DNA of 64,000 nt, from assembly GCF_900880625.1 (NCBI RefSeq), contig NZ_CAAHFB010000001.1:1674001-1738000 (forward strand). Direction: 5' to 3'. This DNA is from Halorhabdus rudnickae. Lineage in GTDB: Archaea; Halobacteriota; Halobacteria; Halobacteriales; Haloarculaceae. Positions 1,931 to 43,309 of this stretch are shown piece by piece; the stretch's first letter is position 1, and each line of letters opens with the position of its first letter. The notes beneath the pieces were generated by a model. The model had not been told where the DNA came from and ran no database searches. It saw only the letters and a program-made list of their open reading frames with translations. The position numbers were made by a program, and so were the translations under genes.

Positions 1931-1967
1931 ACGAGACTCAAACGTTCGTTTGACCTTGGGATAGGGG

Positions 1968-1976: not shown

Positions 1977-1996
1977 GCGGGTCGAATCTGGTAGTG

Positions 1997-2740: not shown

Positions 2741-2753
2741 GCTGGGTAAGCGG

Positions 2754-3800: not shown

Positions 3801-4531
3801 TGCTCGAGGTCAGTGAGTTGGCCAAGGAACTCGGCGGTGCGGTCGTTCTCGGGGGCCTCGAACAACTGTTCCGGTCGACCTCGCTCGACGATCTGTCCGT
3901 CTTCGAGGACGGTGAGCGTGTCTGCGGCAGAGCGAGCAAAACCCATCTCGTGGGTGACCGATAGCATCGTCATTCCCTCGGCGGCGAGGTCGGCCATCAC
4001 GTCGAGGACTTCGCCGACGAGTTCCGGATCCAAGGCGCTGGTCGGCTCGTCGAACAACATGAGTTCGGGCTCCATCGCCAGTGCCCGGGCGATCCCGACG
4101 CGCTGTTTCTGCCCGCCGGAGAGTTCGGCGGGGTGGGAGTCGGCCTGATCGGAAAGCCCCACCTGGTCGAGATAGGCGTCGGCGCGCTCGACGGCCGTCT
4201 CGTGATCCAGCTCGAGTACCTCTTCGAGGCCGAGGGTGATGTTACCTCGTGCCGTCCGGTGGGCAAAAAGATTGAAGTCCTGGAACACCATCCCAACGCG
4301 CCGCCGGAGGGCATTCTCGTCCATCGCGTGGATCGACTCGCTGTCGAGAGTGATCGTCCCTCCGTCGATCCCCGTGAGTCGGTTGACACACCGCAACAGC
4401 GTGGACTTACCAGCCCCGCTCGGACCGACGATCACTTCGACGTCCCCGCGTTCCATCGCGAAACTGACGTCGCGCAGTACGTCTTCTTCCTCGAAAGACT
4501 TCTCGACGTGTTCGAATTCCAGAAGACTCAT
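3797..4531 (-). CDS. Polar amino acid ABC transporter ATPase
   Basis: The 244-residue nucleotide-binding subunit of the importer. Walker A is GPSGAGKST, the signature LSGGQKQRV, Walker B LMLFDEPTSALD, and the switch histidine sits in VTHEM. ATP hydrolysis drives uptake through the two flanking permeases. The frame stays open 64 codons further upstream, but that stretch is three imperfect 17-residue repeats without family resemblance. Start at 4531 gives MSLLEFEHVEKSF, the normal beginning of this family. Confidence 0.9.
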   Translation of the reverse strand: MSLLEFEHVEKSFEEEDVLRDVSFAMERGDVEVIVGPSGAGKSTLLRCVNRLTGIDGGTITLDSESIHAMDENALRRRVGMVFQDFNLFAHRTARGNITLGLEEVLELDHETAVERADAYLDQVGLSDQADSHPAELSGGQKQRVGIARALAMEPELMLFDEPTSALDPELVGEVLDVMADLAAEGMTMLSVTHEMGFARSAADTLTVLEDGQIVERGRPEQLFEAPENDRTAEFLGQLTDLEQ

Positions 4532-4547
4532 CGGTTCGGTCCCTCCG

Positions 4548-4692
4548 TGGTCACGTAGGTCGACAGTTTGTGGATCGTCCGGCTCATGGCACTCTCCCGA
4601 ATCGAGCAGTCCGACGGTCCTGGGTTCGCCCGGCCCACAGCGCCCGCCCGAATCGAGCAGTCCGTCGGTCCCAGGTTCGTCTGGCTCATGGT
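4548..4692. repeat. Three imperfect 51-bp tandem repeats between ATPase and permease genes
   Basis: The 11-mer GAATCGAGCAG recurs at 4599 and 4650, exactly 51 bp apart, with similar flanks. A more decayed third unit begins near 4548. The period is a multiple of three, so the reading frame stays open and would encode 17-residue repeats rich in Glu, Pro, Asp and Gly upstream of the ATPase. The permease upstream is complete, so the repeats fill the gap between two cistrons. Confidence 0.7.
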
Positions 4693-5405
4693 TCGGTTCC
4701 CTCGGGGATCGCGTAAACGTCACCCAGATAGTCCAGCGTGCGGTTGGTCGTGAACGTCAAGACGAAGTAGATCACGCTGATGATGACAATGACCTCGAAC
4801 ATCGCGCTGTCTCGCCCCGGCTGGAGATAGAGGTTCTCCGCGCGGGTGAGCAGTTCCACCAATCCGATCGCAAAGGCGACGCTGGTGTCCTTGAGAACGA
4901 TCGTGAACTCGTTTTGGAAGCCGGGGATCGAACGCCTGATCGCCTGTGGCAAGATGACGTGTCTGATGGCCTGCATGCGGGTCAGCCCGACCGACCGTGC
5001 TGCTTCCATCTGGCCGTCGTCGATCGACTGAATCGACCCGCGGAACACCTGGCTCTGATAGGCCCCACTCCGAAGTCCGAGCGCCAGCGTCGCCGCGACG
5101 AAGGCGTCCAATCGTACGTCAAGCAGCGGGACCGTTCCGAGGCTCGGAATCGGGAGCCCGTAGAAAAAGAGGAATATCAACACGACGATGGGCGTCCCGC
5201 GGAGGACGACGCCGATGGTGCTGACGGCCCCTCTGAGTCGACCCGATCCGTATGCTTCGATGGCGCCGGCGGGGAACCCGGCGAGTAATCCGACCAGGAG
5301 ACTGCTCGCCGTCAGCAGGACCGTCACAACCGTTCCGAGGAGCAGCCACTCCCAGTTGGCGGCGATGAACGCCAAGTCGCCCGTCTGGAGCACGGTCGAG
5401 ACCAT
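4686..5405 (-). CDS. Polar amino acid ABC transporter permease
   Basis: A 239-residue HisM/GlnP-type permease of usual length with about five membrane segments and an EAA loop at SIDDGQMEAARSVGLTRMQ. It should pair with the longer permease at the end of the operon to form the channel. It starts 9 bp after the stop of the substrate-binding protein. The two permeases are clearly different sequences, consistent with a heterodimeric channel. Confidence 0.88.
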   Translation of the reverse strand: MVSTVLQTGDLAFIAANWEWLLLGTVVTVLLTASSLLVGLLAGFPAGAIEAYGSGRLRGAVSTIGVVLRGTPIVVLIFLFFYGLPIPSLGTVPLLDVRLDAFVAATLALGLRSGAYQSQVFRGSIQSIDDGQMEAARSVGLTRMQAIRHVILPQAIRRSIPGFQNEFTIVLKDTSVAFAIGLVELLTRAENLYLQPGRDSAMFEVIVIISVIYFVLTFTTNRTLDYLGDVYAIPEGTEP

Positions 5406-5414
5406 CGAGAATCC

Positions 5415-6185
5415 TTACTCGAACCACTCGGAGACGAGGTCATCGTACGTGCCGTCCTCGCGAATCTCGGCCAGAGCGTCGTTGATGTCGGCGAGTCGGT
5501 CGTCGTCCTGGCGCATCCCGAGACCGAACTGTTCGCCGGTGTCGATCTCGAAGGCGATGGCGACCGACCGCTCTGCCGAGAACGTCTCGGCGACCGGGAT
5601 GTCGATCACGACGGCATCGACGTTGCCGTTCTCCAGATCCTGGACGGCAAGCGTGTAGTTGTCGTACTGGCGATAGTCGCTCTCGCTGATCGTCCCCTCC
5701 TCGATGAGGTCTTCGATCTGTCCCTCGCCGGTCGTCCCGCCCTGGGCACCGACCCGCCGACCCGCGAGGTCCCCAACGCTGCTTGGCTGGAAGTCACCGC
5801 CGTCACGGACGAGGACGGCCTGGCTGGACTCCCAGTACGGATTCGAGAAGTCGATCTGTTCTTGGCGATCGGGTTCGATCGTCATCCCTGCGGCGATGAG
5901 GTCGAGATCGGCTTCTTTGAGCGATGGGATCAGCGTGCCGAAATCGATGTCGACCCACTCGCCGACCTCGTAGCCGGCCCGGCCGATCACTTCCTCGGCG
6001 AGGTCGATGTCGAAGCCGACGACCGTCCCGTCCTGGGTGTACTCGAAGGGCGGGAAGGCCGCGTTCGTACCGGGTGTGATCGTGTCGTCGCTACCGCCCT
6101 GACAACCGGCGATGACGCCGGCGGTCCCGACGGCACCGACAGTCCTGAGGTAGGCGCGACGATCCATACTGAATTCACGGTTCAT
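5415..6185 (-). CDS. Amino acid ABC transporter substrate-binding lipoprotein
   Basis: This 256-residue family 3 solute-binding protein is the first gene of the importer operon. The N terminus has a twin-arginine motif (MDRRAYLR) and a lipobox ending in GVIAGC, so it is probably exported by Tat and lipid-anchored outside the membrane, as is common in haloarchaea. The binding domain shows FPPFEYTQDGTVVGFDIDLA, the usual start of lobe 1. ATG 6185 and ATG 6167 are both possible; an AT-rich element about 25 nt before 6185 favours the former. Confidence 0.88.
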   Translation of the reverse strand: MNREFSMDRRAYLRTVGAVGTAGVIAGCQGGSDDTITPGTNAAFPPFEYTQDGTVVGFDIDLAEEVIGRAGYEVGEWVDIDFGTLIPSLKEADLDLIAAGMTIEPDRQEQIDFSNPYWESSQAVLVRDGGDFQPSSVGDLAGRRVGAQGGTTGEGQIEDLIEEGTISESDYRQYDNYTLAVQDLENGNVDAVVIDIPVAETFSAERSVAIAFEIDTGEQFGLGMRQDDDRLADINDALAEIREDGTYDDLVSEWFE

Positions 6186-6678
6186 GTTCGTGTACGCTGT
6201 CCAGCGTCTATTTCAGCGTTTCGGACGCGTCGAGCCGTGAAACCCGGAAAATCACAGGCAAGTGGTACGAAATGAGGATGATCGATCGTTTTACTCGGGT
6301 GGGCGTCAGCACGTTGAGTGTGCTCTCACAGGCCGATTCCTCGAAGGATAGTGCCGGCTTATATCCGCCGGCTTCGACTGCCACGTCGAGAAGATCATCA
6401 CGCAACTTGGCCCCGATCGCCTGGGGCTGTATTTGCTTCGGTTAGTTTTGGTACGTGACGGGGACGTGGTGGCGGCCCCACTCAGTTCACCAGGTTCCAT
6501 TGGGACCTTGACCGCGTTGGATCGAAACGATTGTGCCGGACGGTTTCGGATCGCTTGTGACTACCGCCGTCGTCTTCTGGTTGCAACGATATTACAGACA
6601 CCCAAACAGCCACTCGCCGAGCGCTGATGCACTCACGCGTCGAGGACAGCAAGACGCTTCTGGGACTTATTTCAATGC
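6186..6678. other. Intergenic region without an intact gene
   Basis: This 490-bp gap separates the divergently placed amino acid importer from the convergent end of the peptide/nickel-type operon. It contains the short GTPase-like remnant listed separately. I see no complete gene or RNA in the rest. Confidence 0.6.
6334..6402 (-). pseudogene. Remnant of the C-terminus of a Nog1-type GTPase gene
   Basis: Read on the minus strand this encodes DLLDVAVEAGGYKPALSFEE. It matches 12 of 20 residues of the C-terminus of the GTPase at 14162-15130 (GVLDAAIEAVGYEPELPFEE). About three quarters of the bases also agree over roughly 54 bp. Upstream there is no G domain, so only a tail is left. It may be a decayed duplicate or the end of a lost paralogue. 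Confidence 0.5.
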
Positions 6679-7347
6679 TCAGAGCGGTACGTCGCCACGG
6701 ACGATATAGCGCTCGTTTTCGATGTCGTTCCCCCAGAAGACGGCGTCAGTCAATGGTTTCGAGACTACGTCTGCCAGCCCCCGGTCACGAAGGAACGCTT
6801 CCATCTGCTCCGCGAACGGGCCGTCATACAGCGGCAGGTCCTCGTGGATATCCGCGTATTCGTCCCAGGGCTCATCGAAGTCCCAGTGGCCTTCGACGAG
6901 TACGAGACGCCCGCCCGGGCGCAGGACGCGTATCCACTCCCGGATGGCCACAACGGGATTGGGCAGCGTCCAGACGAGATGCCGGGCCGTCACGACATCG
7001 AACGAATCGGCGGGGAACTCCAGGGATTCGGCGTCACCCTGCCGGAACTGGAGGGAAGCCTCGACTTCGGCGGCGTTGGCTCGGGCGCGGTCGATCATCT
7101 CGGAGGCATAATCGACGCCGGTAACGTCGTGGCCCAGTTCCGCCAGCAGTAGCGAGACGACGCCGGGGCCACAGCCGACATCGAGAACCTGCTTTGACTC
7201 GCCAGTCCACTCCCGCAGGACCGACACCCATGCGTCGTGCTGGGCCTCGCTGTGGATGGCGTGCTGGCTGTCGCTCTCGTAGGTTTCGGCGCGCCTGTTC
7301 CAATACTGTTCGACGAGTGCTTTGGGCTCGTCATCTGGCGAATCCAT
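6679..7347 (-). CDS. Class I SAM-dependent methyltransferase
   Basis: A 222-residue methyltransferase with motif I VLDVGCGPG (residues 54-62), an acidic end of strand 2 in VTGVDYASEM and motif II region DSFDVVTARHLVWTLPNP, all typical of the Methyltransf_11 group. The substrate is unknown. It lies 271 bp beyond the last gene of the peptide/nickel-type importer, on the same strand. Similar methyltransferases are often next to Nik-like importers in archaea, so a role in making or modifying the imported ligand or metal chelator is possible but inferred. ATG 7347 gives a normal N-terminus. Confidence 0.82.
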   Translation of the reverse strand: MDSPDDEPKALVEQYWNRRAETYESDSQHAIHSEAQHDAWVSVLREWTGESKQVLDVGCGPGVVSLLLAELGHDVTGVDYASEMIDRARANAAEVEASLQFRQGDAESLEFPADSFDVVTARHLVWTLPNPVVAIREWIRVLRPGGRLVLVEGHWDFDEPWDEYADIHEDLPLYDGPFAEQMEAFLRDRGLADVVSKPLTDAVFWGNDIENERYIVRGDVPL

Positions 7348-7618
7348 TAGGCGGACACCTCCCAGTGACCGTCTCTGTGAGCTGTTGGCCTGGATCGTTC
7401 CGGCGAAATCGGGGCTGTGTATGTTGTCGTGGGAACGTTCATTGGCTGTCCTCGATCGATACCGTCGCATTCTATCGAATTGGGCCGGACTGTATTGGTG
7501 TGGAACATTGGATGGGGTTCTGGGGGGTGATGTGCCATTGTGTTAATCTCGTCTGTGGGTCGTGTCGGGCAGCTATGCTGAGAGGCAATGTCGGAGACAG
7601 TTCCGAGACTGACAGCGA

Positions 7619-9175
7619 TCACGCCTCAGGGAGTGTTATCGATTCGACCCCGTAGTCGCTCTCGGTAGGATGGGGCTGGTAGCCATCGAGACCTGCCGAT
7701 GTCGCCACGACGTTCGTATAGTAGGTCAGCAAGGCCGTGGGTGCTTCCCGAAGCGTGATCGCCTGGACCTCGTCGTATTTTTGCTTGCGAGTCTCGTAGT
7801 CCATCGTCGCTCTGGCTGTCTCCAACAGTGTATCGACAGTCTGGTTTTCGTAGCCGTGTTCGAGCGTCGATTGCTCGGAATGATACATATCGCTCAGCCG
7901 TTCGGGATCGGGATACCACAGCATCGATAGCGACATCAGATAACAATCGAAGGCGTCCTGTTTGGTCTGTTCCATCATCGTCGCGTACTCGAAGACCGAC
8001 AACTCGACGTCGATCCCGATCTCTCCGAGCTGGCTCTGGATGACCTCTCCCATGAGTGGCAAACGCGGGCGTTCATTGTATGCAAGAAGCTCGATCGACA
8101 GTTCTGTGCCGTCTCGCGTACGAACGTCTCCCTGGCTGTCGTTCGTCCAGCCAGCCTCCGATAGTAGCGTCCGGGCAGTCTCCGGATCGTAGGCATAGCC
8201 ATCGAGGTCCGGGTTGTGCCAGCGCTCGACGGAGTCAGGGAACGGCCCGACGGCCGCTTTCCCGACGCCTTCGAGGACGGTCTCGACGATCGTGTTCGTA
8301 TCGATGGCGTAGTTGATGGCCTGCCGGACGGGAATCTCGTCGAACGGTGTCGTTGTCGTATCGAACACCAGGAAGCGACATCGCGGGATCTGATAGGCCT
8401 CGACATCGATATCGGCGGCGGTTTCCAGTGGATCGACGTCGCTCAGCGACAGAATGCGAGCCATCTCTAGATCCCCGTTCTCTAATTTGAGTCGCCGCGT
8501 CTGGTCGTCGGTGATCGTTTCATACCGGACGGACTCGACGGCCGGGATCGCCCCGTAATACTCCTCGTTTCGGACAGCGTTGATGATTGTCGCTCCCTCC
8601 CAAGACTGCACTTTCAGTGGCCCGGTACCGATCACCGCCGAGACGTTGCCGTCCTCGTAGGCCGCCGGCGAGAGGATGGCTGTCTTGGGACGAGTGAGGT
8701 GGGCCGGCAGCGAGACCAGTGGACTCGCCGTTTCGACGGTCACCGTCAGGTGGTCGCTCGCACGAACGTCGTCGATCGGGATTTCGGCAAACGCCGGTGA
8801 GTTGACCGCACGTTGGAGTGACCTGACGACCGCATCGGCGTCCATCGTCGTTCCATCGTGGAAGGTAACTCCCTCTCGAAGTGAGAACTCCCAGTGGCGG
8901 GCCGAATCGTCGCTCGTCCAGTCAGTCGCCAGCTCTGGCACGGGCTCGATATCGTGGCTGACGCCGACCAGCGACTCAGTAAGGCCAAATCGCTGTAATA
9001 TCAACCCCCCGTCGAGGGGATCGGGTTTCGGTTCCCACGTCGAGGCGATACGTAGCGTCTGTGACTCGTCTTCACCCGACGAGAGACAGCCAGCAACGGC
9101 GAGTGCCCCGCCTGCAGCTGCACCTTGCAACACTGTTCGTCGACTGATCGGCTGTGAGTTGGTTTCGTTTGCCAT
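7619..9175 (-). CDS. Peptide/nickel-type ABC transporter substrate-binding lipoprotein
   Basis: A family 5 solute-binding protein of 518 residues. It has a twin-arginine motif (SRRTVLQG), a lipobox ending in VAGC, and then ELATDWTSDDSARHWEFSLREG, with the W-x-F-x-L-R-x-G core of the DppA/NikA/OppA family. It should bind a peptide, nickel chelate or similar ligand at the cell surface and deliver it to the permease pair encoded upstream. It starts 5 bp after the fused ATPase gene. ATG 9175 is preferred over a TTG at 9184 because relatives start just before the twin arginines. Confidence 0.88.
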   Translation of the reverse strand: MANETNSQPISRRTVLQGAAAGGALAVAGCLSSGEDESQTLRIASTWEPKPDPLDGGLILQRFGLTESLVGVSHDIEPVPELATDWTSDDSARHWEFSLREGVTFHDGTTMDADAVVRSLQRAVNSPAFAEIPIDDVRASDHLTVTVETASPLVSLPAHLTRPKTAILSPAAYEDGNVSAVIGTGPLKVQSWEGATIINAVRNEEYYGAIPAVESVRYETITDDQTRRLKLENGDLEMARILSLSDVDPLETAADIDVEAYQIPRCRFLVFDTTTTPFDEIPVRQAINYAIDTNTIVETVLEGVGKAAVGPFPDSVERWHNPDLDGYAYDPETARTLLSEAGWTNDSQGDVRTRDGTELSIELLAYNERPRLPLMGEVIQSQLGEIGIDVELSVFEYATMMEQTKQDAFDCYLMSLSMLWYPDPERLSDMYHSEQSTLEHGYENQTVDTLLETARATMDYETRKQKYDEVQAITLREAPTALLTYYTNVVATSAGLDGYQPHPTESDYGVESITLPEA

Positions 9176-9180
9176 GTGTA

Positions 9181-11490
9181 TCAATTGTCAGTAGTCGCAC
9201 CGCTGTTCGATGTCTCGCTGTTCGCTCCCGGCGACTCTCCGCTGGTCGGCTGGTTTGACTGCTCGGTACTGGACTCGTGGGCCTTGTCGGGTGGCGCTCG
9301 CTGTCCCTCCGGGACGGCAGAGCTTCTGGACCCCCCTCCGTCCGGCTCCTCGGGGTGGTGACATCGTGTGTGAACCGCACCGAGCGGTTCAAACGACGGG
9401 TCGCACTTCCGACAGATGTCGGTCTCAGCCGGACATCGCGAGCGAAAGGCACACCCGGACGTTGCTGGTTGCGGTGTCTGTGCCATCCCGGTATCTGTGT
9501 CCGTCTCGGCATCGATTCCCGGAATCGCGTCCAGCAATGTCCGTGTATAGGGATGAGATGGGTCGGTAAAGACCGCCGTTGCCGGGCCGACTTCGACGAG
9601 CTGGCCGAAGTACATGACTGCCAGTCGGTCAGCCATGTGGTGGACGACTTCCAGATCGTGTGAGACCAGAAGATACGTCAGTCCGAGGTCGCGTTGCAGC
9701 GAGGCGAGCAGATTGAGAATCGTTGCCTGGGCTGAGACGTCCAGTGATGCCGTCGGTTCGTCGAGCAACACGATCGACGGACCCAACGCGAGGGCCCGAG
9801 CGATCGCCACTCGCTGGATCTGTCCGCCCGAGAGTTGTCGGGGCTGTCGCTCGGCGTATTCGACCGGTAGCCCGACCGAGTCGAGCAAGGATTCGACACG
9901 TTCGTCCCGCCGCTGTCGCCCCCATCCGGCTTCGTACAGCGGCTCGGCGATGACTTCCCGGACGGTCTGTTTCGGATTGATACTGCGCTGTGGGTTCTGG
10001 AAGACGACACCGATCTCCGAACGCTGGTCGGCCGTTCGTCCGTCGACGCTACCGACAGCCTCGCCGTGTAAGCGAACGGTCCCCGCGGTCGGCGTCTCCA
10101 ACCCGGCGATCAGCTTAAGCAGGGTCGATTTCCCACACCCGCTCTCGCCAATCAGCCCCATCGTCGTCCCCGCTTGCACCGACAGCGAGACGTTTTCGAG
10201 GGCAGTTCGTCGCTCGGCCGCCCCGACGAGTCGGTCCGTGATCGCATCCGACGTTCGGAAGGTTTTGCTCAGGCCGTCCAGAGCGAGGATCGGGTCCGAT
10301 CCGTCTGGCGTAGTGTCGGTCTCACTCGCGGCGGCCGCCGGGGTACCGCTCACGTCGTTCTCGCGGCGCGCACCTGAGTCGATCCCCGCGGACTGTCGAT
10401 CCGTCGAAGCTGTCCCCCCGTCAGCAGCGTGCTGTCCGTCGATAAGTGCCGGGGCCGTTCGTTGGACAGTCCGGGGTTCTCGCGCGCTCGGAACGGCACA
10501 CTCGACGGTATGACTGGGGGCGACCTCGACGGTCTCAGGTGGCCCATCACGGCAGGCCGCAGTCACGGACGGACAGCGGTGGGCAAACGGACAGCCTGAC
10601 GGCGCGGTAGTCCGCTCGGGGACGTCACCGTCGATCGTCGGTAGAGTGGTCCCGGGTTCCGAACGCCGTGGAATACAATCGAGCAGAGACTTGGTGTATG
10701 GGTGACTCGGGGCCGTCAGTACCGCGTCGGTCTGGCCACGCTCGACGATCGATCCGTCGTACATGACGAGGACGCGATCACATAGCTCCGAGACGAGACC
10801 CAGATCATGGGTGATGAACAACATACCCATGCCGTACTCGCGATTCAACGTCCGGAGGGTCTCGTGGATCGCCGCCTGTGTCGTCGTATCCAGGGCTGTC
10901 GTCGGTTCGTCGGCGATAAGTAGTGACGGGCGACGTGCCAGCGCCATGGCGATCATGACACGCTGGCGGAGACCGTCACTCAGCTGGTGTGGGTAGGCAT
11001 CGATCCATTCGTCAGGCTGGTGGATGCCCGCCGCCTGCATGGCCTGTCGAACCTTCGCGGGGTTGTTCGTCTGTCCGTGCCGGCACAGATGGGACGTGAT
11101 CTCACCGAGCAGGGACTGTTGGCGTGGCTGCTTGCGGATCCGCACGGCTTCGTCGATCTGTTCGCCGACGGGAAATCCGGGATTGAGCGAGGACGCGGGA
11201 TCCTGGAAGATCGTCGCCAGTTCCTGACCGCGTAGTCGCCCAAGCGTCCGTTCGTCGGTTTCGGTGAGATCAGTCCCGTCGAACGTGATCGTCCCGCGGG
11301 TGATCTCGCCGGGCGCTTCGAGGCGGACGAGCGAGTTGGCTGTTGCCGATTTCCCACAGCCACTCTCGCCGACCAGCCCGAGGACCTCACCCGCCTCGAG
11401 TTCGAAAGAGACGCCATCGACTGCACGGACGGGACGGCCGGCTGTCCGAAATCGAACTGATAAGTTCTCGACAGTGAGGGAGTTGCTCAT
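9181..11490 (-). CDS. Fused double ABC ATPase, DppD-DppF type
   Basis: A 769-residue protein carrying two complete nucleotide-binding domains that are separate subunits in most bacteria. The first has GESGCGKSAT, LSDGLRQRV and LLIADEPTTALD; the second has GESGCGKSTL, LSGGQIQRV and IVLLDEPTASLD. Each domain is followed by the cysteine-rich oligopeptide-transporter extension (CPFAHRCP and CAFRSRCP). A linker of about 90 polar residues joins the halves. It powers the importer of this operon. ATG 11490 overlaps the permease stop by 4 bp; the open frame above it is non-homologous. Confidence 0.9.
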   Translation of the reverse strand: MSNSLTVENLSVRFRTAGRPVRAVDGVSFELEAGEVLGLVGESGCGKSATANSLVRLEAPGEITRGTITFDGTDLTETDERTLGRLRGQELATIFQDPASSLNPGFPVGEQIDEAVRIRKQPRQQSLLGEITSHLCRHGQTNNPAKVRQAMQAAGIHQPDEWIDAYPHQLSDGLRQRVMIAMALARRPSLLIADEPTTALDTTTQAAIHETLRTLNREYGMGMLFITHDLGLVSELCDRVLVMYDGSIVERGQTDAVLTAPSHPYTKSLLDCIPRRSEPGTTLPTIDGDVPERTTAPSGCPFAHRCPSVTAACRDGPPETVEVAPSHTVECAVPSAREPRTVQRTAPALIDGQHAADGGTASTDRQSAGIDSGARRENDVSGTPAAAASETDTTPDGSDPILALDGLSKTFRTSDAITDRLVGAAERRTALENVSLSVQAGTTMGLIGESGCGKSTLLKLIAGLETPTAGTVRLHGEAVGSVDGRTADQRSEIGVVFQNPQRSINPKQTVREVIAEPLYEAGWGRQRRDERVESLLDSVGLPVEYAERQPRQLSGGQIQRVAIARALALGPSIVLLDEPTASLDVSAQATILNLLASLQRDLGLTYLLVSHDLEVVHHMADRLAVMYFGQLVEVGPATAVFTDPSHPYTRTLLDAIPGIDAETDTDTGMAQTPQPATSGCAFRSRCPAETDICRKCDPSFEPLGAVHTRCHHPEEPDGGGSRSSAVPEGQRAPPDKAHESSTEQSNQPTSGESPGANSETSNSGATTDN

Positions 11491-12395
11491 GCTCTCCTCC
11501 GTTGTTCGAGGGCCTGTTGATCCGGGTCCAGAAGATCCCGCAGGCCATCGCCAAGGAGATTGAACCCAATGACGGTCAGCATGATTGCGACACCGGGGAC
11601 CGTGATGAGCCACCACGCCGACCGAAGGTGATCACGGCCGGCATTGACCATCATGCCCCACTCGGCGGTCGGTGGCTGTGCGCCGACGCCGAGAAAAGAC
11701 AGGCTGGCGACCGAGATGACGACCGTTCCGAGATCCAGCGTCGCCAACACGATGACCGGATTCATCACGTTCGGTAGCAGGTGTCGACCGGCAATGCGCC
11801 AGCGGGGGGTTCCATACAGTTTCGAGGACTGAACAAAGGAGTTGTTCTTCACCGAGAGGACGCTACCCCGGACGACCCGCGCATACGAGGCCCAGCCGAC
11901 GACCGAGATTGCAAGGACGATACTCCCCAACCCGGGACCGAGAATGCCGGCGACGACAAGCGCCAGAATGAGTCCCGGGAAGGCCAGTTGGACATCGACG
12001 AGACGCATCAAGGAAGCGTCGACGATGCCGCCGGCAAGGCCTGCGACCAGTCCAAGGACCGTCCCGACGACCAGTCGGATCGCCGTCACGAGGAGGGCAA
12101 GTCCAAGCGAGAGACGAGCCCCGTAGACCAGCCGTGTGGCGACGTCGCGCCCGAGTTCGTCTGTCCCAAGTGGGTGTGCCAGCGAGGGCGCTGCCAGTCG
12201 GGTACGAAGAGCCTGGGTCGCCGGATCGTACGGTGTCACCAGCGGCCCCACGATCGCAACCACGCCCAGCAGGGCGACGATCGCGCCCCCGAGTGTGACT
12301 TTCGGCGGGGCCGACCGGACCCGACGTCGCCCTGAATCGATCGCGGTCCGGACTGACCGGAGCGTCGGCCACCGGGCGAGTAGCTGGTCGATCAC
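11487..12395 (-). CDS. Peptide/nickel-type ABC permease, DppC/NikC type
   Basis: The 302-residue second permease of the importer. It has an N-terminal membrane segment, the HPLGTDELGRDVATRLVYGAR motif diagnostic of the DppC/NikC side, and an EAA loop at ARVVRGSVLSVKNNSFVQ. It overlaps both neighbours by 4 bp, so the operon is translationally coupled. It forms the channel together with the DppB-like protein encoded just upstream. Confidence 0.9.
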   Translation of the reverse strand: MIDQLLARWPTLRSVRTAIDSGRRRVRSAPPKVTLGGAIVALLGVVAIVGPLVTPYDPATQALRTRLAAPSLAHPLGTDELGRDVATRLVYGARLSLGLALLVTAIRLVVGTVLGLVAGLAGGIVDASLMRLVDVQLAFPGLILALVVAGILGPGLGSIVLAISVVGWASYARVVRGSVLSVKNNSFVQSSKLYGTPRWRIAGRHLLPNVMNPVIVLATLDLGTVVISVASLSFLGVGAQPPTAEWGMMVNAGRDHLRSAWWLITVPGVAIMLTVIGFNLLGDGLRDLLDPDQQALEQRRRA

Positions 12396-13384
12396 GACCG
12401 AACACCCGACTCGACCTGTGGATCGATCGCGACGTATGCCAGATCGACCAGCTGGTTGATCAAGACGAACACGATCGCCGTGACGAGGACGACGCCCTGG
12501 ACGACGGGATAATTCCGGGCAAAGACCGCATCGACCAGGAGCGTCCCCAGACCCGGCCGCTGAAAGACGACTTCGACGACGACGGCCCCGTTCAACACGA
12601 AGCCAAATTGTAGCCCGATGACTGTCACGACCGGGATGAGCGCGTTGCGAAGCGCGTGTTTATAGACCACGAGACGCTCGCGGACGCCCTTCGAGCGCGC
12701 AACGACGACGTAATCTTTGCCCAGTTCATCGAGGACCGACGTGCGGACGATCCGGGTGATGATCCCGGCCATCGCGGTACCGAGCGTGATCGCAGGTAAG
12801 ACGAGATGCCCAACTGTGCCCGATCCCGAGACCGGTGTCAGTCCCAGTCCCAACGAGAAGACGAGAATGAGAAGATATCCCAGCCAGAAGTTCGGGATCG
12901 AGACACCCAGCAGCGCCCCGATCTGAGCGGTATGATCGATCCACGTATCGTACTGGACAGCACTGAGAATGCCAAGCGGGATCGCGATCACGACCGCAAC
13001 GACGATCGCCGCGATGGCTAACTCGGCAGTGTTTGGCAAATGCAACGCCAGCAGTTCCCGGACGGATTGGCTACCGTAATACGACGAGCCAAAGTCCCCG
13101 TGAATCGCGTCGACGAGCCAGGATAGATACTGCTGGACGAACGGTTCGTCCAGTCCGTGCTCGGCTCGAAAGGCGGCCATTTCGGCGGCCGTCGGCTCAC
13201 GCCGTAGCTGCTGGGCAAGGATCGTATGGGCGGGGTCGCCGGGCGTCAGATAGATTAGCCCGTAGGTGATCAGCGACGCTCCCAACGCGACGACGCTGAC
13301 CGAACATAGCCGGGAAAGACCACCACGGACTGCCCATGAGAGATCCCGCCTGCCAGGCATGCGATTCATCATCGGAACGGTCAC
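12392..13384 (-). CDS. Peptide/nickel-type ABC permease, DppB/NikB type
   Basis: The 330-residue first permease of the importer. It shows the DppB/NikB hallmarks: a first membrane segment, the loop LTPGDPAHTILAQQ, GLDEPFVQQYLSWL, and an EAA-type loop near DYVVVARSKGVRERLVVYKH. The start region has ATG codons at 13384, 13372 and 13360; I kept the first because it overlaps the stop of the acetyltransferase by 4 bp. Confidence 0.88.
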   Translation of the reverse strand: MTVPMMNRMPGRRDLSWAVRGGLSRLCSVSVVALGASLITYGLIYLTPGDPAHTILAQQLRREPTAAEMAAFRAEHGLDEPFVQQYLSWLVDAIHGDFGSSYYGSQSVRELLALHLPNTAELAIAAIVVAVVIAIPLGILSAVQYDTWIDHTAQIGALLGVSIPNFWLGYLLILVFSLGLGLTPVSGSGTVGHLVLPAITLGTAMAGIITRIVRTSVLDELGKDYVVVARSKGVRERLVVYKHALRNALIPVVTVIGLQFGFVLNGAVVVEVVFQRPGLGTLLVDAVFARNYPVVQGVVLVTAIVFVLINQLVDLAYVAIDPQVESGVRS

Positions 13385-13884
13385 AACGGCTTTTCGTAGA
13401 AAATGACTTCTCCATCGAGTATCGGGTGTGGTTCCCGATGGGTCTCCTCGTAGCCGTTGTCCTCGTACAGCGATTGGGCGACGGTCAACACATCGTCTGT
13501 GTGCAGGGTGATGCGATCGAACGCTTGCCGGCGTGCGAACCCCTCCAGCTTCTCGAGCAGCGCCGTTCCGTACCCCTTCTGCTGGTGTTTCGGCATGACG
13601 CGCAAGCGTCGCAGTTCGATCGCATGCTCCTGTGTGGGTGCCATTCCGCCGGTCGCGATCACGGTTCCGTCGAGACAGCCAACGAGGAACGTCCCGCCAG
13701 CCTCGAAGTAGTGTTCCGGAATGTTTCGCAGGTCCGCATCGAAGGAGGGCTTGGAAACGAACGGCAGCGGTGAGTCTTCGATAGCCGTTTTGTGGACCTC
13801 CCAGACACGATCGGCATCCGTGGGCTTGAAACGCCGGACAGTCAGCGGGCGAGCTCCCGAATCAGGGACCAGGGACTGGCTCAT
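13381..13884 (-). CDS. GNAT family N-acetyltransferase
   Basis: A 167-residue acetyltransferase. The acetyl-CoA binding motif A is LRRLRVMPKHQQKGYGTALL, with the Q-x-x-G-x-G pyrophosphate loop intact. It is the first gene of the operon that continues into the Nik/Dpp-like importer, with a 4-bp overlap to the permease. The acceptor substrate is unknown; context suggests it modifies the imported compound, or protects the cell from it. ATG 13884 gives a normal GNAT N-terminus; the longer open frame above it does not look coding. Confidence 0.82.
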   Translation of the reverse strand: MSQSLVPDSGARPLTVRRFKPTDADRVWEVHKTAIEDSPLPFVSKPSFDADLRNIPEHYFEAGGTFLVGCLDGTVIATGGMAPTQEHAIELRRLRVMPKHQQKGYGTALLEKLEGFARRQAFDRITLHTDDVLTVAQSLYEDNGYEETHREPHPILDGEVIFYEKPL

Positions 13885-14161
13885 ATGAGATTGCTGTAAC
13901 AGAATGGGAATAAGTATTACGAATCTTCTCCCCAGTAATACTGGCCTGGACCCTACCTGAGTCATTTGAGACTGGGTGGCCAGGCTGGCGATGGATAGCG
14001 CGAGGTTGTGGCTGCAACCGACAACAAACGCAAGGAAATATCGATCGTCCGTCAGGTGATCAGCTGCATCGGGATGGCATACGCTGGCCGTCCTCACATC
14101 ACGAAAGTCGGGACAGCTCGTTGTGGCCTATTAGCCACCGGAAACAAACCGATCAGTCCGC

Positions 14162-15130
14162 TCACTCCTCGAATGGTAGTTCGGGCTCGTACCCGACGGC
14201 TTCGATCGCTGCGTCGAGAACGCCCTCGACGTTGTCGTCCTCGGTGACGCTCATGTAGTGGTCAGCCTCCACGCTCCGTGATCGGTCGGCTTTGTTGGCG
14301 ACCGTCAGGACGGGGGCGTCCTCGAAGCGTTCGACGACATCGTCCCGGAGATCGAGTTGCACGTCGATCGGGAAGCCACACTCGCCACTGGCATCGACCA
14401 TGACGAGTACGGCATCTGCGAGGTGCTCCAAGGCACTGATCGCCTGGTTTTCGATATCGTTGCGCTCCGCCGGTGGCCGATCGAGCAAGCCCGGCGTGTC
14501 CACCAACTGGTAGCGGATGTGATCCCGTTCGACGTGACCGACGTGGATCTGCGTGGTCGTGAACGGGTACGCGGCGATCTCGTTGTCGGCCCGCGTCACG
14601 CGGTTGACGAACGAGGACTTCCCGACGTTGGGGTAGCCCGCGACGACGATTGCTGGTTCGTCGGGCCGGATGTCGGGGAACGCTCGGAGTGCGTTTCTGG
14701 CCTCGCCCAGTGCCGCGAGGTCGTCGCTCACCTCGCGGGTAACGTCCGCCAGCCGGGCGAACGCTTGCTTGCGGAGCTTGCGCGCGCCGTCGACATCGGC
14801 GTTACGCAGCCGCGACTGGTACTCGTCGCGGATGTCGTCGGTCTTTCGACTGGCCCACGTGACTTCCGAGAGGTGCTGTCGCAACTCGTCGACGCTACGC
14901 TCTGCGTCGGCCAGTTCCCGGTAGAACGGGTCAAGGTCGTCGAAGTCCGGCCAAGCCGTGACGACGTTCTCTAAGTTGTCCGAGAGGATGTTCGACGCAG
15001 TCTGGAGCATCGACTCCTGGGCCTCGTGGCCCTGCTTGGCTCGGCCGGACCGGGCGGCCCGCGAGAAGGCCTTGTCGATGAGTTCCTCCGACGTCGGGGT
15101 CGTCGGGAGGTTCTCGAATGGATGGCTCAT
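14162..15130 (-). CDS. Nog1-type GTP-binding protein
   Basis: A 322-residue GTPase. An N-terminal helical domain of about 150 residues precedes a G domain with P-loop GYPNVGKSS (165-173), G3 DTPGLLDRP and G4 NKAD. This is the layout of archaeal Nog1/OBG-related proteins thought to act in large ribosomal subunit assembly. The protein ends in a short GYEPELPFEE tail, and a partial copy of this tail lies at 6334-6402. ATG 15130 gives the standard MSHPFENLPTTPTSEELID start; the longer frame is rejected. Confidence 0.9.
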   Translation of the reverse strand: MSHPFENLPTTPTSEELIDKAFSRAARSGRAKQGHEAQESMLQTASNILSDNLENVVTAWPDFDDLDPFYRELADAERSVDELRQHLSEVTWASRKTDDIRDEYQSRLRNADVDGARKLRKQAFARLADVTREVSDDLAALGEARNALRAFPDIRPDEPAIVVAGYPNVGKSSFVNRVTRADNEIAAYPFTTTQIHVGHVERDHIRYQLVDTPGLLDRPPAERNDIENQAISALEHLADAVLVMVDASGECGFPIDVQLDLRDDVVERFEDAPVLTVANKADRSRSVEADHYMSVTEDDNVEGVLDAAIEAVGYEPELPFEE

Positions 15131-15287
15131 TGGGCGTTCGTAACCCGCGCGGCGGGAAAAGGACCGCGAATCCGGCTCGTCCGGGCCGCAAGCCCGCTGT
15201 GCTGGGTAAGTCGAAATCTGATAGCTCCCGCCGAAGGGTCGATGTCGCGGAGCGGTCGTTTTTATCGGTTCGATTCGAAACGGAGGT

Positions 15288-15599
15288 ATGGCACACAAAG
15301 ATGTCGAAGACATCCTTCCCGGCGGCCATCTGACTGAACAAGCGCTTTCCGGCGATGTGACACAGATTCATCGCGGTCAGGCCTACGCCGAGGAGGGCGA
15401 CACCTTTGAAATCGAGGACACCACGTTCGAAGTGACCGACGTGACCCACCGAATGCTCGGCGATCTGACGGACGAAGACGCACAGCGCGAAGGGTCCCCA
15501 GATCTGGACCACTACCGGCAGCGACTCCAACACGCTCATGACAACTTCGAGTGGGACGACGACAGTGAGGTTGTCCGCCACCGCTTCGAGCAAGTCTGA
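15288..15599 (+). CDS. Small ASCH/PUA-like domain protein
   Basis: A 103-residue acidic protein. The run FEIEDTTFEVTDVTHRMLGDLTDEDAQREG resembles small haloarchaeal ASCH proteins, a PUA-related fold linked to RNA binding. The final residues EWDDDSEVVRHRFEQ are typical of this group. It is divergent from the GTPase gene, with about 155 bp between starts. No catalytic site is evident. Confidence 0.6.
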   Translation: MAHKDVEDILPGGHLTEQALSGDVTQIHRGQAYAEEGDTFEIEDTTFEVTDVTHRMLGDLTDEDAQREGSPDLDHYRQRLQHAHDNFEWDDDSEVVRHRFEQV

Positions 15600-15952
15600 G
15601 ACCTCTCTATTTGGTATTCTCTCCCGAATCCGCTACCGTTCGCCTTCTTCGAGGTCTCGCTGCTCGCGGGTCACGGCGTTCCCCGCTCGCCTATAACGAG
15701 GTCTCCCTACGGTCGACCTCGCTATTACCGCCGTTCCCGCAACTCCGCCCGCAGATCCGCCAGATCCATATCGTTTCCACCTTTTATTCCTCGGGGTCGC
15801 AAAGCGACCCACTCGTCACAAAAGCTGGGCCAAAAGTCCTCGACCTCGCTACTCACGGCTTCCGTTGGTCGCCGTTCGCAATTCCGAGGCTCTCACTTCA
15901 TTCGAGCCTCGCTATCGCTCGCTCGAGTGAAACGGCGCTTCGCGCCGTACGA
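15600..15952. other. Gene-free, hairpin-rich region downstream of hisE
   Basis: No gene is apparent. The segment contains several perfect short hairpins, such as GGTCGC-AAA-GCGACC near 15797 and ACGGCGC-TTC-GCGCCGT near 15931. A direct copy of the 3' end of hisE is described separately. An open frame across the whole segment has no protein-like character. Confidence 0.65.
15725..15770 (-). repeat. Direct copy of the last 46 bp of hisE
   Basis: The 46 bp at 15725-15770 are identical to 15952-15997, which cover the last codons and stop of hisE plus one flanking base. The copy lies 227 bp downstream of the gene, in the same orientation. Matching stops abruptly on the upstream side within hisE coding sequence, so only the 3' end was copied. 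Confidence 0.9.
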
Positions 15953-16243
15953 TTACCGCCGTTCCCGCAACTCCGCCCGCAGATCCGCCAGATCCATGTC
16001 TTTCATCGCCAGCAGAACCAGCAGGTGATAAACGATGTCGGCGCTCTCGTGGGCGATTTCCTCGCGGTCGTCGTCCTTCGCGGCGAGCAGCAATTCCGTC
16101 GACTCCTCACCGAGTTTCTCCAGGACGGCGTTCTCGCCTTTCTCGTGGGTGAACAGGTCGGCCGTATAGGAGTCCTCGGGTAGCGTTTCCTTACGGTCCT
16201 CGATCACCGCGAACAACTCATCGAGGATTGCGTCGTCGGTCAT
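15953..16243 (-). CDS. hisE: Phosphoribosyl-ATP pyrophosphatase
   Basis: A 96-residue all-alpha NTP pyrophosphatase, HisE family. It hydrolyses phosphoribosyl-ATP to phosphoribosyl-AMP, the second step of histidine synthesis. The metal-binding region is clear: GEESTELLLAAK followed by ESADIVYHLLVLL (the ExxE and ExxD motif). Other his genes are not in the window. ATG 16243 gives the usual length; the longer open frame above it overlaps the cydB end and is not used. Confidence 0.92.
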   Translation of the reverse strand: MTDDAILDELFAVIEDRKETLPEDSYTADLFTHEKGENAVLEKLGEESTELLLAAKDDDREEIAHESADIVYHLLVLLAMKDMDLADLRAELRERR

Positions 16244-16313
16244 GTGGGTACAGATACACTGCCGGTCCCTAAGCGCGTCGAAGCAGGTGACGGAATCACG
16301 ACGACCGATCCGG

Positions 16314-17318
16314 CTATACGCCGTACCCCTCACTCTCGATTGGGCCGCTGAAGACGCCATAGAGGAACTTGAAGTACCACAAGACGACGAGGAGGACCGG
16401 GAGCCCGAGGATCGTAGTGAGATTGAGTGCCAGCGGTGAGACCACGGCGTCGCTGACGGTCAGTCCAGTCGCCGGGTAGATCGTCGGGTACAGCAGGAGC
16501 GCGACCAGCAGGCTCAACAGCGTCGGAAGCGCGAGCGCCGCGGAGAGCCACGCACGGTAGCGATCCCGGAGTGCGAGGACGATCCCGCCGAGCCCCGCCA
16601 CGACCGAGAGGCCGACGATGGCGATACCGGGAATCGAAAGGATCGTCCCGGCAGCCCCGCCGGCGTCGGTCCAGATCACGACCGCCAGCAGGACGACCAC
16701 GCCGCCAAGGTACGCAAGCGTGGCGAGAATGCCGAGATCACGCATCTCTCCGGCAAGCGCCGGCCTGGTCTTGGCCGCGATGAACGCCGCGCCGGTGACC
16801 GCCGAGACGGCGACCAGACCGACGCCGGTCAGGATGGCGGGCAGCGAGATCGCGCCGACGCTGAACACCCACGAGCCAGCGAGCACGCCGAACAAAAAGG
16901 GCGCGAGCGTACTCCCGCCGATAAACGACCAGTCACAGGCTCGCTGCCATTGTTCGTCCTCGCGTTGCTCGCGCAGTTCCGGGCCGATGCCGCGGAACAA
17001 CAGGGCGAGGACGAATCCGAGTGCGATCAGGTAGTTATCCGCAAGCAGGCGCGAGTATACATCCGGGAAGGCGGCAAGTGTCATCGTCCCGAAGGCGATC
17101 AGCCACACCTCGTTGGCGTCCCAAATCGGTCCGAACGCCGAAAGCAGCGTCTCTCGATCGGCCTCGTTATCGCGAGTCGCATACAGCATCCCGATCCCGA
17201 AGTCAAAACCGTCCAGGACGACGTACATCGTCAGCGCGAACATGACGACGCCGAACCAGACCTCCGGCAGCGCCGGATGGAGGTAGCTATCAACCGGGAT
17301 GATCAGCGGTTTAATCAT
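16314..17318 (-). CDS. cydB: Cytochrome bd-type quinol oxidase subunit II
   Basis: A 334-residue, eight to nine-segment membrane protein with the CydB start: LPEVWFGVVMFALTMYVVLDGFDFGIGML, then PIWDANEVWLIAFG. Subunit II pairs with CydA in the membrane oxidase that reduces oxygen to water with electrons from quinol. It overlaps the end of cydA by 8 bp, so both are made from one transcript. The length matches haloarchaeal homologues. Confidence 0.93.
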   Translation of the reverse strand: MIKPLIIPVDSYLHPALPEVWFGVVMFALTMYVVLDGFDFGIGMLYATRDNEADRETLLSAFGPIWDANEVWLIAFGTMTLAAFPDVYSRLLADNYLIALGFVLALLFRGIGPELREQREDEQWQRACDWSFIGGSTLAPFLFGVLAGSWVFSVGAISLPAILTGVGLVAVSAVTGAAFIAAKTRPALAGEMRDLGILATLAYLGGVVVLLAVVIWTDAGGAAGTILSIPGIAIVGLSVVAGLGGIVLALRDRYRAWLSAALALPTLLSLLVALLLYPTIYPATGLTVSDAVVSPLALNLTTILGLPVLLVVLWYFKFLYGVFSGPIESEGYGV

Positions 17319-18774
17319 CGCTGGTCACCCCCGGGATCGGGCCGTACCAGTGATCGTTTGCGGATTCCTCGACCCCGAGCTCGCGAAGTTCGTCCTCGAT
17401 CAGCCACCGGAGGACGTACAGCGCGGCCAGCACCAGGCCGACATAGATGACCACGAACGCGATCAGGCTCGCAGTCGCCTCCGCCGAAGTCAGCGTCGGG
17501 GAGACGGCGTCGCTCGTCGTGAGTACGTCCTGGATCACCCACGGCTGGCGGCCGATCTCCGTGACGTACCACCCGGTGAGTAATGCGGCATAACCCAGCG
17601 GTGACGCGGCGATCATCACTTTCAGATAGCGGCTGCTCTCAGAGAGACGATCCCGATAGATGAGGTACCCGCCCCAGAATGCCAACGCAATGAACAGGAA
17701 CCCGAGTCCGACCATGAACCGGAACGACCAGAACACGAGCGCGACCGGTGGGTTCTCCTCGTACTCGTCGAGTCCTTGTACGACGGCGTCGAAATCACCC
17801 CCGCTGGCGAGGAACGACCCGACTCTGGGGAGGCTTATCGCAAAGAGGTTCTCCGCCCGCGGGTCGGTCAACGCGCTTGGATCGGTCGGGACGGCAAAGA
17901 GGTGCAGATCGGCCGTCCCGGTCTCGTAGTGGGCCTCCATGGCGGCGAACTTCTGGGGCTGGGTGTCCTCGACGTGGCGGCCGTAGGCGTCACCGTGGAC
18001 CGCCTGCAATGGCGCGGCGACGATCAAGATCAGGACCGCGATCTTCAGCGCCGTGTTCCAGGACCCCGCATCGCGTTTCTTCCAGAGGATGTAGGCGGCG
18101 ACGCCGGCCACCAGCAGCGCCACGGAGATCACTGACGCGTTGATCATGTGAACGTACATCCAGGTCATCCGGGGCGTGAAGAACGCGGCGATGGGATCGG
18201 TCAGTTTGGCGACTTCCATCCCGTTGCGGGAGATCATCTCGAAACCCCGGGGCGTCTGCATCCAGGCATTGACGACCAGGATCCAAAAGCCAGAGAGCCA
18301 GGCCCCAAAGCCAGTCAGCACCGACGAGAGGAAATAGGTCCGATCGCTGACTTTCTCGCGGCCGAACAGTAACACACCGAGGAAGACGGCTTCGAGGAAG
18401 AAGGCCATCTTCGCCTCGAAGGCCAGCGGGCCGCCGATCAACTCACCCGCGACCGCCGAGAACTGCGGGAAGTTCGTCCCGAACTGGAAGCTCATCGGGA
18501 TTCCTGTCACAGTTCCCATGACGAACCCGACGGCGAAGACCTTCAACCAGAACGAGCGCAACCGCGTGTAGCGCTCGTCGTCTGTCCTGACGTCTTTCCA
18601 CGTGAAGTAGACGATAAAGGGCGCGAGCCCGATCGAAAGGGCCGCAAAGAGGATGTGCACGCTGATCGTCCACCCGAACTGGGCCCGACTCGCGAACTCG
18701 ACCGGCAAGAACAGTGCCCATCCGTCCAGCACCGCTCCGGCCCCGAGTGCGCTTTCGACTATCTGTGCGTACAT
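17311..18774 (-). CDS. cydA: Cytochrome bd-type quinol oxidase subunit I
   Basis: The 487-residue haem-bearing subunit. SRAQFGWTISVHILFAALSI carries the conserved N-terminal histidine that binds haem. EIGRQPWVI contains the family-wide GRQPW motif. The loop between segments VI and VII is short, as in the group with a short Q-loop. The first 27 residues extend beyond the usual start and include a hydrophobic patch. It should support respiration at low oxygen. A possible TATA element lies about 36 nt before the ATG. Confidence 0.93.
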   Translation of the reverse strand: MYAQIVESALGAGAVLDGWALFLPVEFASRAQFGWTISVHILFAALSIGLAPFIVYFTWKDVRTDDERYTRLRSFWLKVFAVGFVMGTVTGIPMSFQFGTNFPQFSAVAGELIGGPLAFEAKMAFFLEAVFLGVLLFGREKVSDRTYFLSSVLTGFGAWLSGFWILVVNAWMQTPRGFEMISRNGMEVAKLTDPIAAFFTPRMTWMYVHMINASVISVALLVAGVAAYILWKKRDAGSWNTALKIAVLILIVAAPLQAVHGDAYGRHVEDTQPQKFAAMEAHYETGTADLHLFAVPTDPSALTDPRAENLFAISLPRVGSFLASGGDFDAVVQGLDEYEENPPVALVFWSFRFMVGLGFLFIALAFWGGYLIYRDRLSESSRYLKVMIAASPLGYAALLTGWYVTEIGRQPWVIQDVLTTSDAVSPTLTSAEATASLIAFVVIYVGLVLAALYVLRWLIEDELRELGVEESANDHWYGPIPGVTSDD

Positions 18775-18932
18775 TCGTTATCGAGCGCTCTGTCTCCTGA
18801 AAGGATAAGTCGGCGGTTCCCTCCCGGCGACTGGAAATAGGCGAATGAATTTTACGTGTGCACGAAGACTCTTTGAGTAAGCAGCAAATTTTGACGAAAT
18901 TTCGGCCCGGTTCCCGCGCAGTGACGCGTCTC

Positions 18933-19511
18933 TCACTCGAAGAATGCGAGTTCGTGAATCCGGTGGTCGCCGGTCAATTCCGGGTGAAAAGAGGTCCCGA
19001 CCACTGGCCCGTCGCGGACCGCGACGGGTCGACCGTCCCAGGTGGCGAGGACGTCGACATCACCGACTTCGCTGATGACCGGCGCGCGGATGAACACCGC
19101 GTGGAACGACTCGTCCAGCCCGTCGACGTCGAGCGGGGCCTCGAAACTGTCCTTCTGTCGGCCGAAGGCGTTGCGCTGGACGTGAACGTCCAGCAGATCG
19201 AGTGTCTCGACCCGGTCGTCGCCGGCGTCGCTCGCGGCGACGATCAGGCCCGCACAGGTCGCCAGTACGGGCTTGCCACTGGCGACGTGCTCGCGGATTT
19301 CGGCGGCGATTCCCTCGCGGTGGATCAGCCGGGAGATGGTCGTCGACTCGCCGCCGGGCATGAGTAACACGTCACAGTCCTCGACGAGACCGGACTCGCG
19401 GATCTCGATGACTGTGGCAGCTTCGCCGTGGTCGGCGGCGGCCTCGACGACGGCCTCGGCGTGTTCGTTCACGTCGCCCTGGACGGCGACGACGCCGGCG
19501 GTAATGGCCAT
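18933..19511 (-). CDS. pdxT: Pyridoxal 5'-phosphate synthase glutaminase subunit PdxT
   Basis: A 192-residue class I glutaminase that supplies ammonia to PdxS for vitamin B6 synthesis. The oxyanion motif LLMPGGESTTI, the nucleophile in LATCAGLIV (Cys about residue 79) and the His-Glu pair in SFHPEL are all present. The length matches the family. The pdxS gene is not in the window. It is divergent from no neighbour and reads toward cydA, with a 160-bp gap. Confidence 0.93.
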   Translation of the reverse strand: MAITAGVVAVQGDVNEHAEAVVEAAADHGEAATVIEIRESGLVEDCDVLLMPGGESTTISRLIHREGIAAEIREHVASGKPVLATCAGLIVAASDAGDDRVETLDLLDVHVQRNAFGRQKDSFEAPLDVDGLDESFHAVFIRAPVISEVGDVDVLATWDGRPVAVRDGPVVGTSFHPELTGDHRIHELAFFE

Positions 19512-42574: not shown

Positions 42575-42961
42575 CTGTTACTCTTGATCGGTATCACAGC
42601 CCCCTATCGAAACCGGGAGCCGAACAGTTGCGAGCAAGCTCTCCGGGAGACGCTCTGATTGGTCTTCTACGGGAAGGCTAGGCTGATACAGACTCTACCA
42701 GCTGGGAAAGCGATCATCGGAGCCAGAAAATCCAGACTGGAGTCGATCTACCATTGAGATCATATATTTGACTAGTTTTTTAATGCTTTGATTGGCAGTT
42801 CTCCACATTATCCGGCTGGAACCCCCTCTGGAAGCCGAACCCGTTCACGGACTGAACGGATTCGACCGTCAAGACCCCCTATTTGACCGGCGAAGGAACG
42901 ACCCGATCACCGGCTATAAGCACTGAAAAATACGAAAACGGCATAATTACGAATCGTGCAG

Positions 42962-43053
42962 AAGGTGAGTGGGTCCGGGCGGATTTGAACCTCGGTCGCT
43001 CCCGTTCGTTCGCTATCGCTCACTCACCTTCCGCTCCCTGCTTCCAATCCGCC
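42962..43053 (-). repeat. tRNA-Val 3'-end copy B with inverted segments
   Basis: Positions 42968-42991 repeat the last 24 nt of the region that ends tRNA-Val. AAGGTGAGTG (42962-42971) pairs with CACTCACCTT (43021-43030), and GGCGGATT (42978-42985) with AATCCGCC (43046-43053). The two pairings cross instead of nesting. The copy lies 133 bp from copy A. Confidence 0.85.
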
Positions 43054-43100
43054 GGCCGCTCCGCATACGCGGCGCTCGCAAGTGAGCGCCGCGAAAACTC

Positions 43101-43185
43101 AGTGGGTCCGGGCGGATTTGAACCACGCCCTGACGTGCTCGCTTCGCTGCGCGCGTCACGTCTGCTTCAAATCCTCGTCACCCAC
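43101..43185 (-). repeat. tRNA-Val 3'-end copy A inside an 84-nt palindrome
   Basis: Positions 43101-43126 are identical to 43233-43258, the T arm and 3' acceptor strand of tRNA-Val. The copy forms one arm of a nested palindrome: GTGGGT (43102-43107) pairs with ACCCAC (43180-43185), and GGATTTGAA (43114-43122) with TTCAAATCC (43166-43174). It lies 132 bp from the gene's own 3' end. Confidence 0.88.
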
Positions 43186-43234
43186 ACAGACGGCGCTGGC
43201 TCCTCGTTTCACTCGTCGCAGTCGCCGTCAGAAG

Positions 43235-43309
43235 TGGGTCCGGGCGGATTTGAACCACCGACCTCGGCCTTGTAAAGGCCACGTCATAACCAACCTAGAC
43301 CACGGACCC
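43235..43309 (-). tRNA. tRNA-Val (anticodon UAC)
   Basis: A 75-nt cloverleaf on the minus strand. The acceptor stem is GGGTCCG/CGGACCC with discriminator A; the anticodon stem TGGCC/GGCCG carries loop TTTACAA, so the anticodon is UAC (valine). The T arm has loop TTCAAAT. No intron is present and CCA is not encoded. Its 3' end is copied twice downstream. Confidence 0.93.

Follow-up and report, generated by a model that had tools for sequence, protein, structure and literature searches.

The tRNA-Val(TAC) gene in the window (the whole stretch of 64,000 nt of Halorhabdus rudnickae DNA that was analysed) is followed by two tandem units, which are probably members of a Halobacteria-wide set of non-coding DNA-hairpin cassettes that site-specific recombination has placed at the T-loop. 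Stacks of such units behind tRNA genes suggest an undescribed sort of tRNA-targeting mobile DNA. The original prediction started from 26 nt that were said to recur exactly 132 bp away, and the 26 nt at 43233–43258 do recur exactly at 43101–43126. A third copy of the tRNA-Val end, with small differences, is located at 42968–42994, 133 bp beyond the second. Because this third copy closes a second unit, the tRNA-Val locus is a tandem array, and its features are as follows.

43234–43309, minus strand: tRNA-Val(TAC), the anchor gene of the array (ARAGORN; Rfam RF00005 at 43235–43309, 59.1 bits)
43102–43233, minus strand: unit A, 132 bp, proximal to the tRNA, without a counterpart at the same place in the congener G001
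43186–43233, minus strand: hairpin H1 region of unit A (ctgacggcg...cgccgtc)
43165–43177, minus strand: inverted arm of unit A (CGAGGATTTGAAG), complementary to the T-loop and to some of the 3′ T-stem strand
43124–43164, minus strand: core hairpin of unit A, of a core type also present behind tRNA-Pro(TGG) (87 % identity over 79 nt)
43102–43123, minus strand: direct arm of unit A, an exact copy of the tRNA from T-loop to 3′ end, and the one seen in the original prediction
42969–43101, minus strand: unit B, 133 bp, distal, of the type with which the array ends in 6 of 7 congeneric genomes
43041–43053, minus strand: inverted arm of unit B (GGCGGATTGGAAG)
42991–43040, minus strand: core hairpin of unit B, of a core type also present behind tRNA-Leu(TAA)
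42969–42990, minus strand: direct arm of unit B, the third copy of the tRNA 3′ end, overlooked in the original prediction

Read on the tRNA strand, each unit begins with H1; the T-loop and 3′ T-stem strand follow as an inverted copy, then comes a core hairpin, and last a direct copy that extends from the T-loop to the tRNA 3′ end. The 84-nt palindrome described originally is the second half of unit A. The strand at 43101–43185 (85 nt) is predicted to form a long imperfect hairpin as ssDNA (−23.6 kcal/mol, z = −4.19), and none of 200 shuffles was as good. Its inverted arm is real but exact only in part: GTGGGT and GGATTTGAA match, and the bases between them differ. Some acceptor bases are inverted as well in the tRNA-Val unit. 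Additionally, a 14-nt inverted repeat has one half (42958–42971) in the flank just past the last tRNA copy and the other (43021–43034) in the unit B core.

The cassettes are not peculiar to tRNA-Val, and the palindrome in the window is one member of a larger set. All 42 Rfam tRNA genes of the window genome were inspected; a strict parse recovered 29 units behind 19 tRNAs, compared with 31 behind 19 in G001, and about half of the tRNAs are without units. A covariance model, R1, was built from 26 units, mostly from the window genome. The underlying alignment comprised 23 of 30 units picked by eye together with 3 from relatives, and the covariation pair counts rest on this chosen set. R1 has 44 matches in the window genome, of which 36 are in sense orientation and downstream of 24 of the 42 tRNAs, in a tested zone that makes up 0.75 % of the genome. 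The other 8 consist of 5 that are the same palindromes read backwards and 3 that are situated at attachment ends of integrated elements, two of these on contig C6, next to an integrase-like gene and the 3′ half of a tRNA-Val, and one behind an 18.8-kb element in tRNA-Arg(TCG).

Since R1 was mostly trained on the window genome, its independent test lies in other genomes. The original prediction had proposed a search of haloarchaeal genomes for tRNA 3′-end copies in palindromes; R1 matches (E 0.01) are present in 289 of 292 Halobacteria and 76 of 77 genera, with unit counts that are lower bounds, as at most 13 candidates per genome were scored. Three of the 292 (G031, G048 and G291) had no R1 match at E 0.01. 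Among 148 genomes drawn from the phylum, R1 matched in 23, all of them the window genome or members of the same family or order. The 125 without a match are G048, of the same order, a further 19 labelled only as belonging to the phylum, and 105 of unstated class; R1 is G+C-rich, so that low-G+C genomes are a harder target for it. Among 59 sampled matches from other genomes, a chosen part of those listed, 56 (19 of 20 and 37 of 39) are situated 0–500 nt behind a tRNA in sense orientation. The exceptions are locus L158, where the match directly follows an integrase-like frame and an acceptor-end copy, locus L207, where it follows a tRNA-Gly 3′ half, and locus L199. At L199 (genome G011) a sense tRNA upstream was not found, and this match alone among the 59 has neither a tRNA nor an attachment copy to explain it.

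Units are also present in Natronorubrum bangense and Natrinema thermotolerans (plasmid collection) and in Halorhabdus amylolytica and H. salina, the latter two with the tRNA-Val neighbourhood in common with the window. Unit architecture is uniform, with a median length of 121 nt and an interquartile range of 113–133 nt across 169 units. No unit emerged from three pattern scans of viral contigs, the lone match (L224) being without the rest of a unit and without a tRNA, and units were not met in circular or free form. Likewise, haloarchaeal phage records gave no match, and three matches in Streptomyces phages amount to 26 nt at E = 1. Behind a tRNA-Phe gene in genome G159 (C1:2111885-2112545), three units of near-equal score are evenly spaced at 272 bp, which is probably a tandem duplication.

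The two arms of the units are fitted to the adjoining tRNA. Arm analysis covered 169 units, which belong to 107 of the 177 tRNA loci that were parsed; the set is enriched for unit-bearing loci and excludes duplicate loci (L002–L015, L091–L120), L183 and L184, loci with less than 200 nt downstream, and direct copies having no recognisable inverted arm. Where T-loop positions vary, the inverted arm carries the base of its own tRNA at 68 of 81 positions and the majority base at 6. A C at loop base 5 occurs in 2 of 105 units by TTCAAATC tRNAs versus 30 of 36 by TTCGAATC tRNAs (Fisher 2e-22). The inverted arm tracks tRNA positions 54–65 only, i.e. the T-loop and T-stem (z 4.4 to 12.8 where the tRNAs vary); at position 66 and in the acceptor stem it has no clear excess over shuffled tRNAs (z −1.1 to 2.0; 169 units). 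The earlier picture of one arm as the whole copy inverted thus holds for the T-loop and 3′ T-stem strand but not for position 66 and the acceptor stem. The direct arm tracks the tRNA from about position 53 to the 3′ end, with the 5′ T-stem strand essentially uncopied. An anchor-neutral permutation of the inverted arm gave 86 of 125 stem matches versus 60.0 when shuffled, a value reached in 0 of 5000 permutations (30 of 33 parsed units). An initial permutation test was set aside, as the arm had been placed by its match to its own tRNA; the analysis of 169 units also used neutral anchors.

Cores, by comparison with the arms, are shared between tRNAs: some that are 90–94 % identical stand behind different tRNAs, such as Gly(TCC) and Arg(TCT). 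Among the core ends that occur most often, CAG or TAG starts tend to pair with a CGTG finish, and CCT starts with TCCG or TTCG. At three loci (L137, L150 and L049) a different palindromic insert is located downstream of the tRNA, inside direct copies and between the T-loop and acceptor part; an example from this group is GATCGAC...GTCGATC before CTCACTCCC.

Several observations bear on whether the hairpins fold as DNA or RNA. H1 stems covary strongly, and their non-Watson–Crick pairs comprise 11 G.T and 7 A.C, compared with 32 G.T and 2 A.C in tRNA stems of the window genome and G001 (Fisher 0.005); a hairpin needed 4 or more Watson–Crick pairs out of 6 to enter the H1 count, hence the G.T:A.C ratio alone was used. 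In the arms, G.T (109) and A.C (115) pairs are about equally frequent. Covariation of H1 without the G.U preference of tRNA stems indicates DNA rather than RNA folding. The core outer stems, with 5 G.T and no A.C, go against the DNA reading. Tandem G.A pairs can stabilise DNA hairpins, and tandem G.A motifs at hairpin tips number 327 on the tRNA-sense strand versus 34 on the other. From the sequences, the self-complementarity seems to belong to the DNA, with a preference for one strand. A count over all tandem-GA hairpins (G.T 38, A.C 81) was discarded, as outward extension enters a conserved internal loop of the core. Folding energy was also dropped as evidence on strand: of 162 units, 110 fold more stably on the tRNA-sense strand and 50 less stably, but upstream controls lean alike (50 of 82).

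Arrays differ between species by whole units. When unit A of tRNA-Val(TAC) is cut out at the direct repeat, the remainder has exactly the arrangement of G001 (272 identities, 27 mismatches and 2 gap columns in the alignment). Array content differs at most tRNAs between two congeners. Differences at tRNA-Val across the genus lie between the B-type unit and the tRNA, the B-type unit being last in 6 of 7 genomes; in G002 a B-like unit is not last, and more units follow beyond it. Losses via direct-repeat recombination would equally yield whole-unit differences. Direct copies have 0.51 mismatches in first units (103) versus 1.41 in later units (66; p = 3e-4), and among 44 arrays of at least two units, the first copy surpasses the last in 21, equals it in 20 and falls short of it in 3. 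Gene conversion from the tRNA would equally keep the proximal copy best.

Three other explanations were weighed, each of which is in conflict with at least one result. The original prediction favoured a fold-back or template switch at the tRNA 3′ end as the source of the inverted copy; tandem duplication would then spread the units and quasi-palindrome correction would keep the arms matched. Palindromic arms that match the adjoining tRNA are in keeping with this, as are a few units, for instance at L066, with a longer inverted arm that includes acceptor bases, and the equal-scoring, evenly spaced units of G159 suggest that tandem duplication does occur. However, core types common to different tRNAs and to many genera would be unexpected from local copying, and the inverted copy ends at the T-stem/acceptor boundary where the direct copy continues, which makes a local origin of this kind unlikely. 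Units transcribed behind the tRNA as structured RNA, with a role in tRNA processing, termination or T-arm mimicry, would fit covarying hairpins that are nearly always in sense orientation behind tRNAs, the strand bias of the tandem G.A motifs and the G.T pairs of the core outer stems. The earlier suggestion of a tRNA-like RNA structure keeps the latter in its favour, yet is weakened by the near or complete absence, from H1 stems and arms, of the bias towards G.U over A.C that tRNA stems have. Additionally, about half of the tRNAs do without units, unit number and content vary between congeners, and tRNA was the sole Rfam family matched at gathering scores in the window stretch and 16 loci. A role as structured RNA is therefore considered quite improbable.

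The third explanation, that the units are scars of integrative elements, single or tandem attachment sites that a provirus or plasmid using the same tRNA has left behind, draws on the fact that integrase-bearing elements do target these tRNAs. One case is an 18.8-kb element integrated in tRNA-Arg(TCG) of the window genome (L184, G000:C1:378000-397999, approximately 126–19026). A PF00589 integrase (E 3.5e-10) lies at its far end beside a short copy of the acceptor end, and the tRNA-Arg unit, displaced, follows directly behind. Integrase-like frames, recognised by eye, are also present on C6 and at L158. On C6 of the same genome (L009 1150–1540 and L002 1773–2774), two tRNA-Val-type units and a longer tRNA-Val(GAC) 3′ half are located by the integrase-like gene, in inverted orientation and about 11 kb from tRNA-Val(GAC), and look like an element end relocated by inversion. 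Because the tRNA-Arg element lies between the tRNA and the unit, the unit is beyond the attachment copy of the element; L158 and L207 look similar. The integrated elements have a shorter attachment copy of their own, and the early view that the copies do not mark where an ordinary integrated element ends is upheld. Direct tRNA 3′-end repeats do flank the units of the window, but at 132 and 133 bp these are far too short for an integrase gene. Clean excision is scarless, and one architecture is common to the units. Leftover attachment sites are thus a very improbable source.

The preferred explanation remains that of cassettes inserted at the T-loop. Each cassette is about 120 bp, with two DNA hairpins and palindromic arms that repeat the sequence of the adjoining tRNA gene in its T-loop and 3′ T-stem strand. 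Site-specific recombination is proposed to insert the cassette precisely where the T-loop begins on its 5′ side, between tRNA positions 53 and 54; a putative tyrosine recombinase acting in trans with the 7-nt T-loop as overlap is the probable agent. In the folded strand, the inverted arm would turn the recombination site double-stranded. Every insertion would give the tRNA an intact 3′ end and displace older cassettes outward, such that arrays would grow at the tRNA side with the newest cassette adjoining the tRNA. Crossover at the T-loop edge would account for the start of the direct copy, the variable loop-base match and the restored tRNA, as well as for clean whole-unit differences and arrays that lengthen at the tRNA side. 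What we infer from these patterns is active mobility, a crossover at the T-loop and single-stranded folding as the recombining form. Cleavage at tRNA loop edges is discussed for archaeal integrases (PMC8371274).

If true, nearly every haloarchaeal genome carries tRNA-tied mobile DNA that rewrites the 3′ ends of tRNA genes with every insertion, the genes remaining functional. It would then be testable which recombinase uses the T-loop crossover, and whether integron-type single-stranded hairpin recombination exists in haloarchaea. The arrays could double as a fast-changing record of strain history.

A literature search found no description of tRNA-end copies in hairpin units; subscription journals were thinly covered, and a description elsewhere is possible. 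The closest formal likeness is with integrons, in which attC hairpins are recombined at attI, the array grows adjoining attI and the folded attC is double-stranded. Like integron cassettes, the tRNA units form tandem arrays with a strand-asymmetric hairpin, and each unit ends in an imperfect attC-like palindrome; outer arms that begin at a GTT core complete a resemblance of form only. Entry at a single fixed end may be a further likeness, but losses or gene conversion could mimic it. Unlike integron cassettes, the units are about 120 bp without an open reading frame, their arms vary with the tRNA, they target the T-loop of many tRNA genes, and at their apparent entry end, where integrons have intI, stands a tRNA gene. 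An integron-like system of Halobacteria, with tRNA T-loops as the attachment point, tRNA-fitted single-stranded cassettes, a tyrosine recombinase acting in trans and arrays behind dozens of tRNAs ordered newest first, is put forward as a tentative and somewhat doubtful extension.

Tyrosine integrases of archaeal type are carried by SNJ2/pT26-2-type elements (PMC8371274), which resemble the units in the use of the tRNA 3′ part as an attachment site, the restored tRNA and the direct repeats. They differ in that the units encode nothing, have an inverted arm and stack, and true elements integrate between the tRNA and the unit. The MITEs, IS200/IS605-derived PATEs and small mobile repeats of Haloquadratum are likewise short, non-coding haloarchaeal mobile repeats with palindromes; the portions of PMC3119063 available describe no tie to tRNA ends, and relate the terminal inverted repeats of MITEs to a known transposon. 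In contrast to MITEs, the arms of the units are tRNA sequence, specific to the respective tRNA, and the units are anchored to tRNA genes. If short non-autonomous mobile repeats are counted as one kind, the cassettes would fall within it; no known kind considered here fits all of their features.
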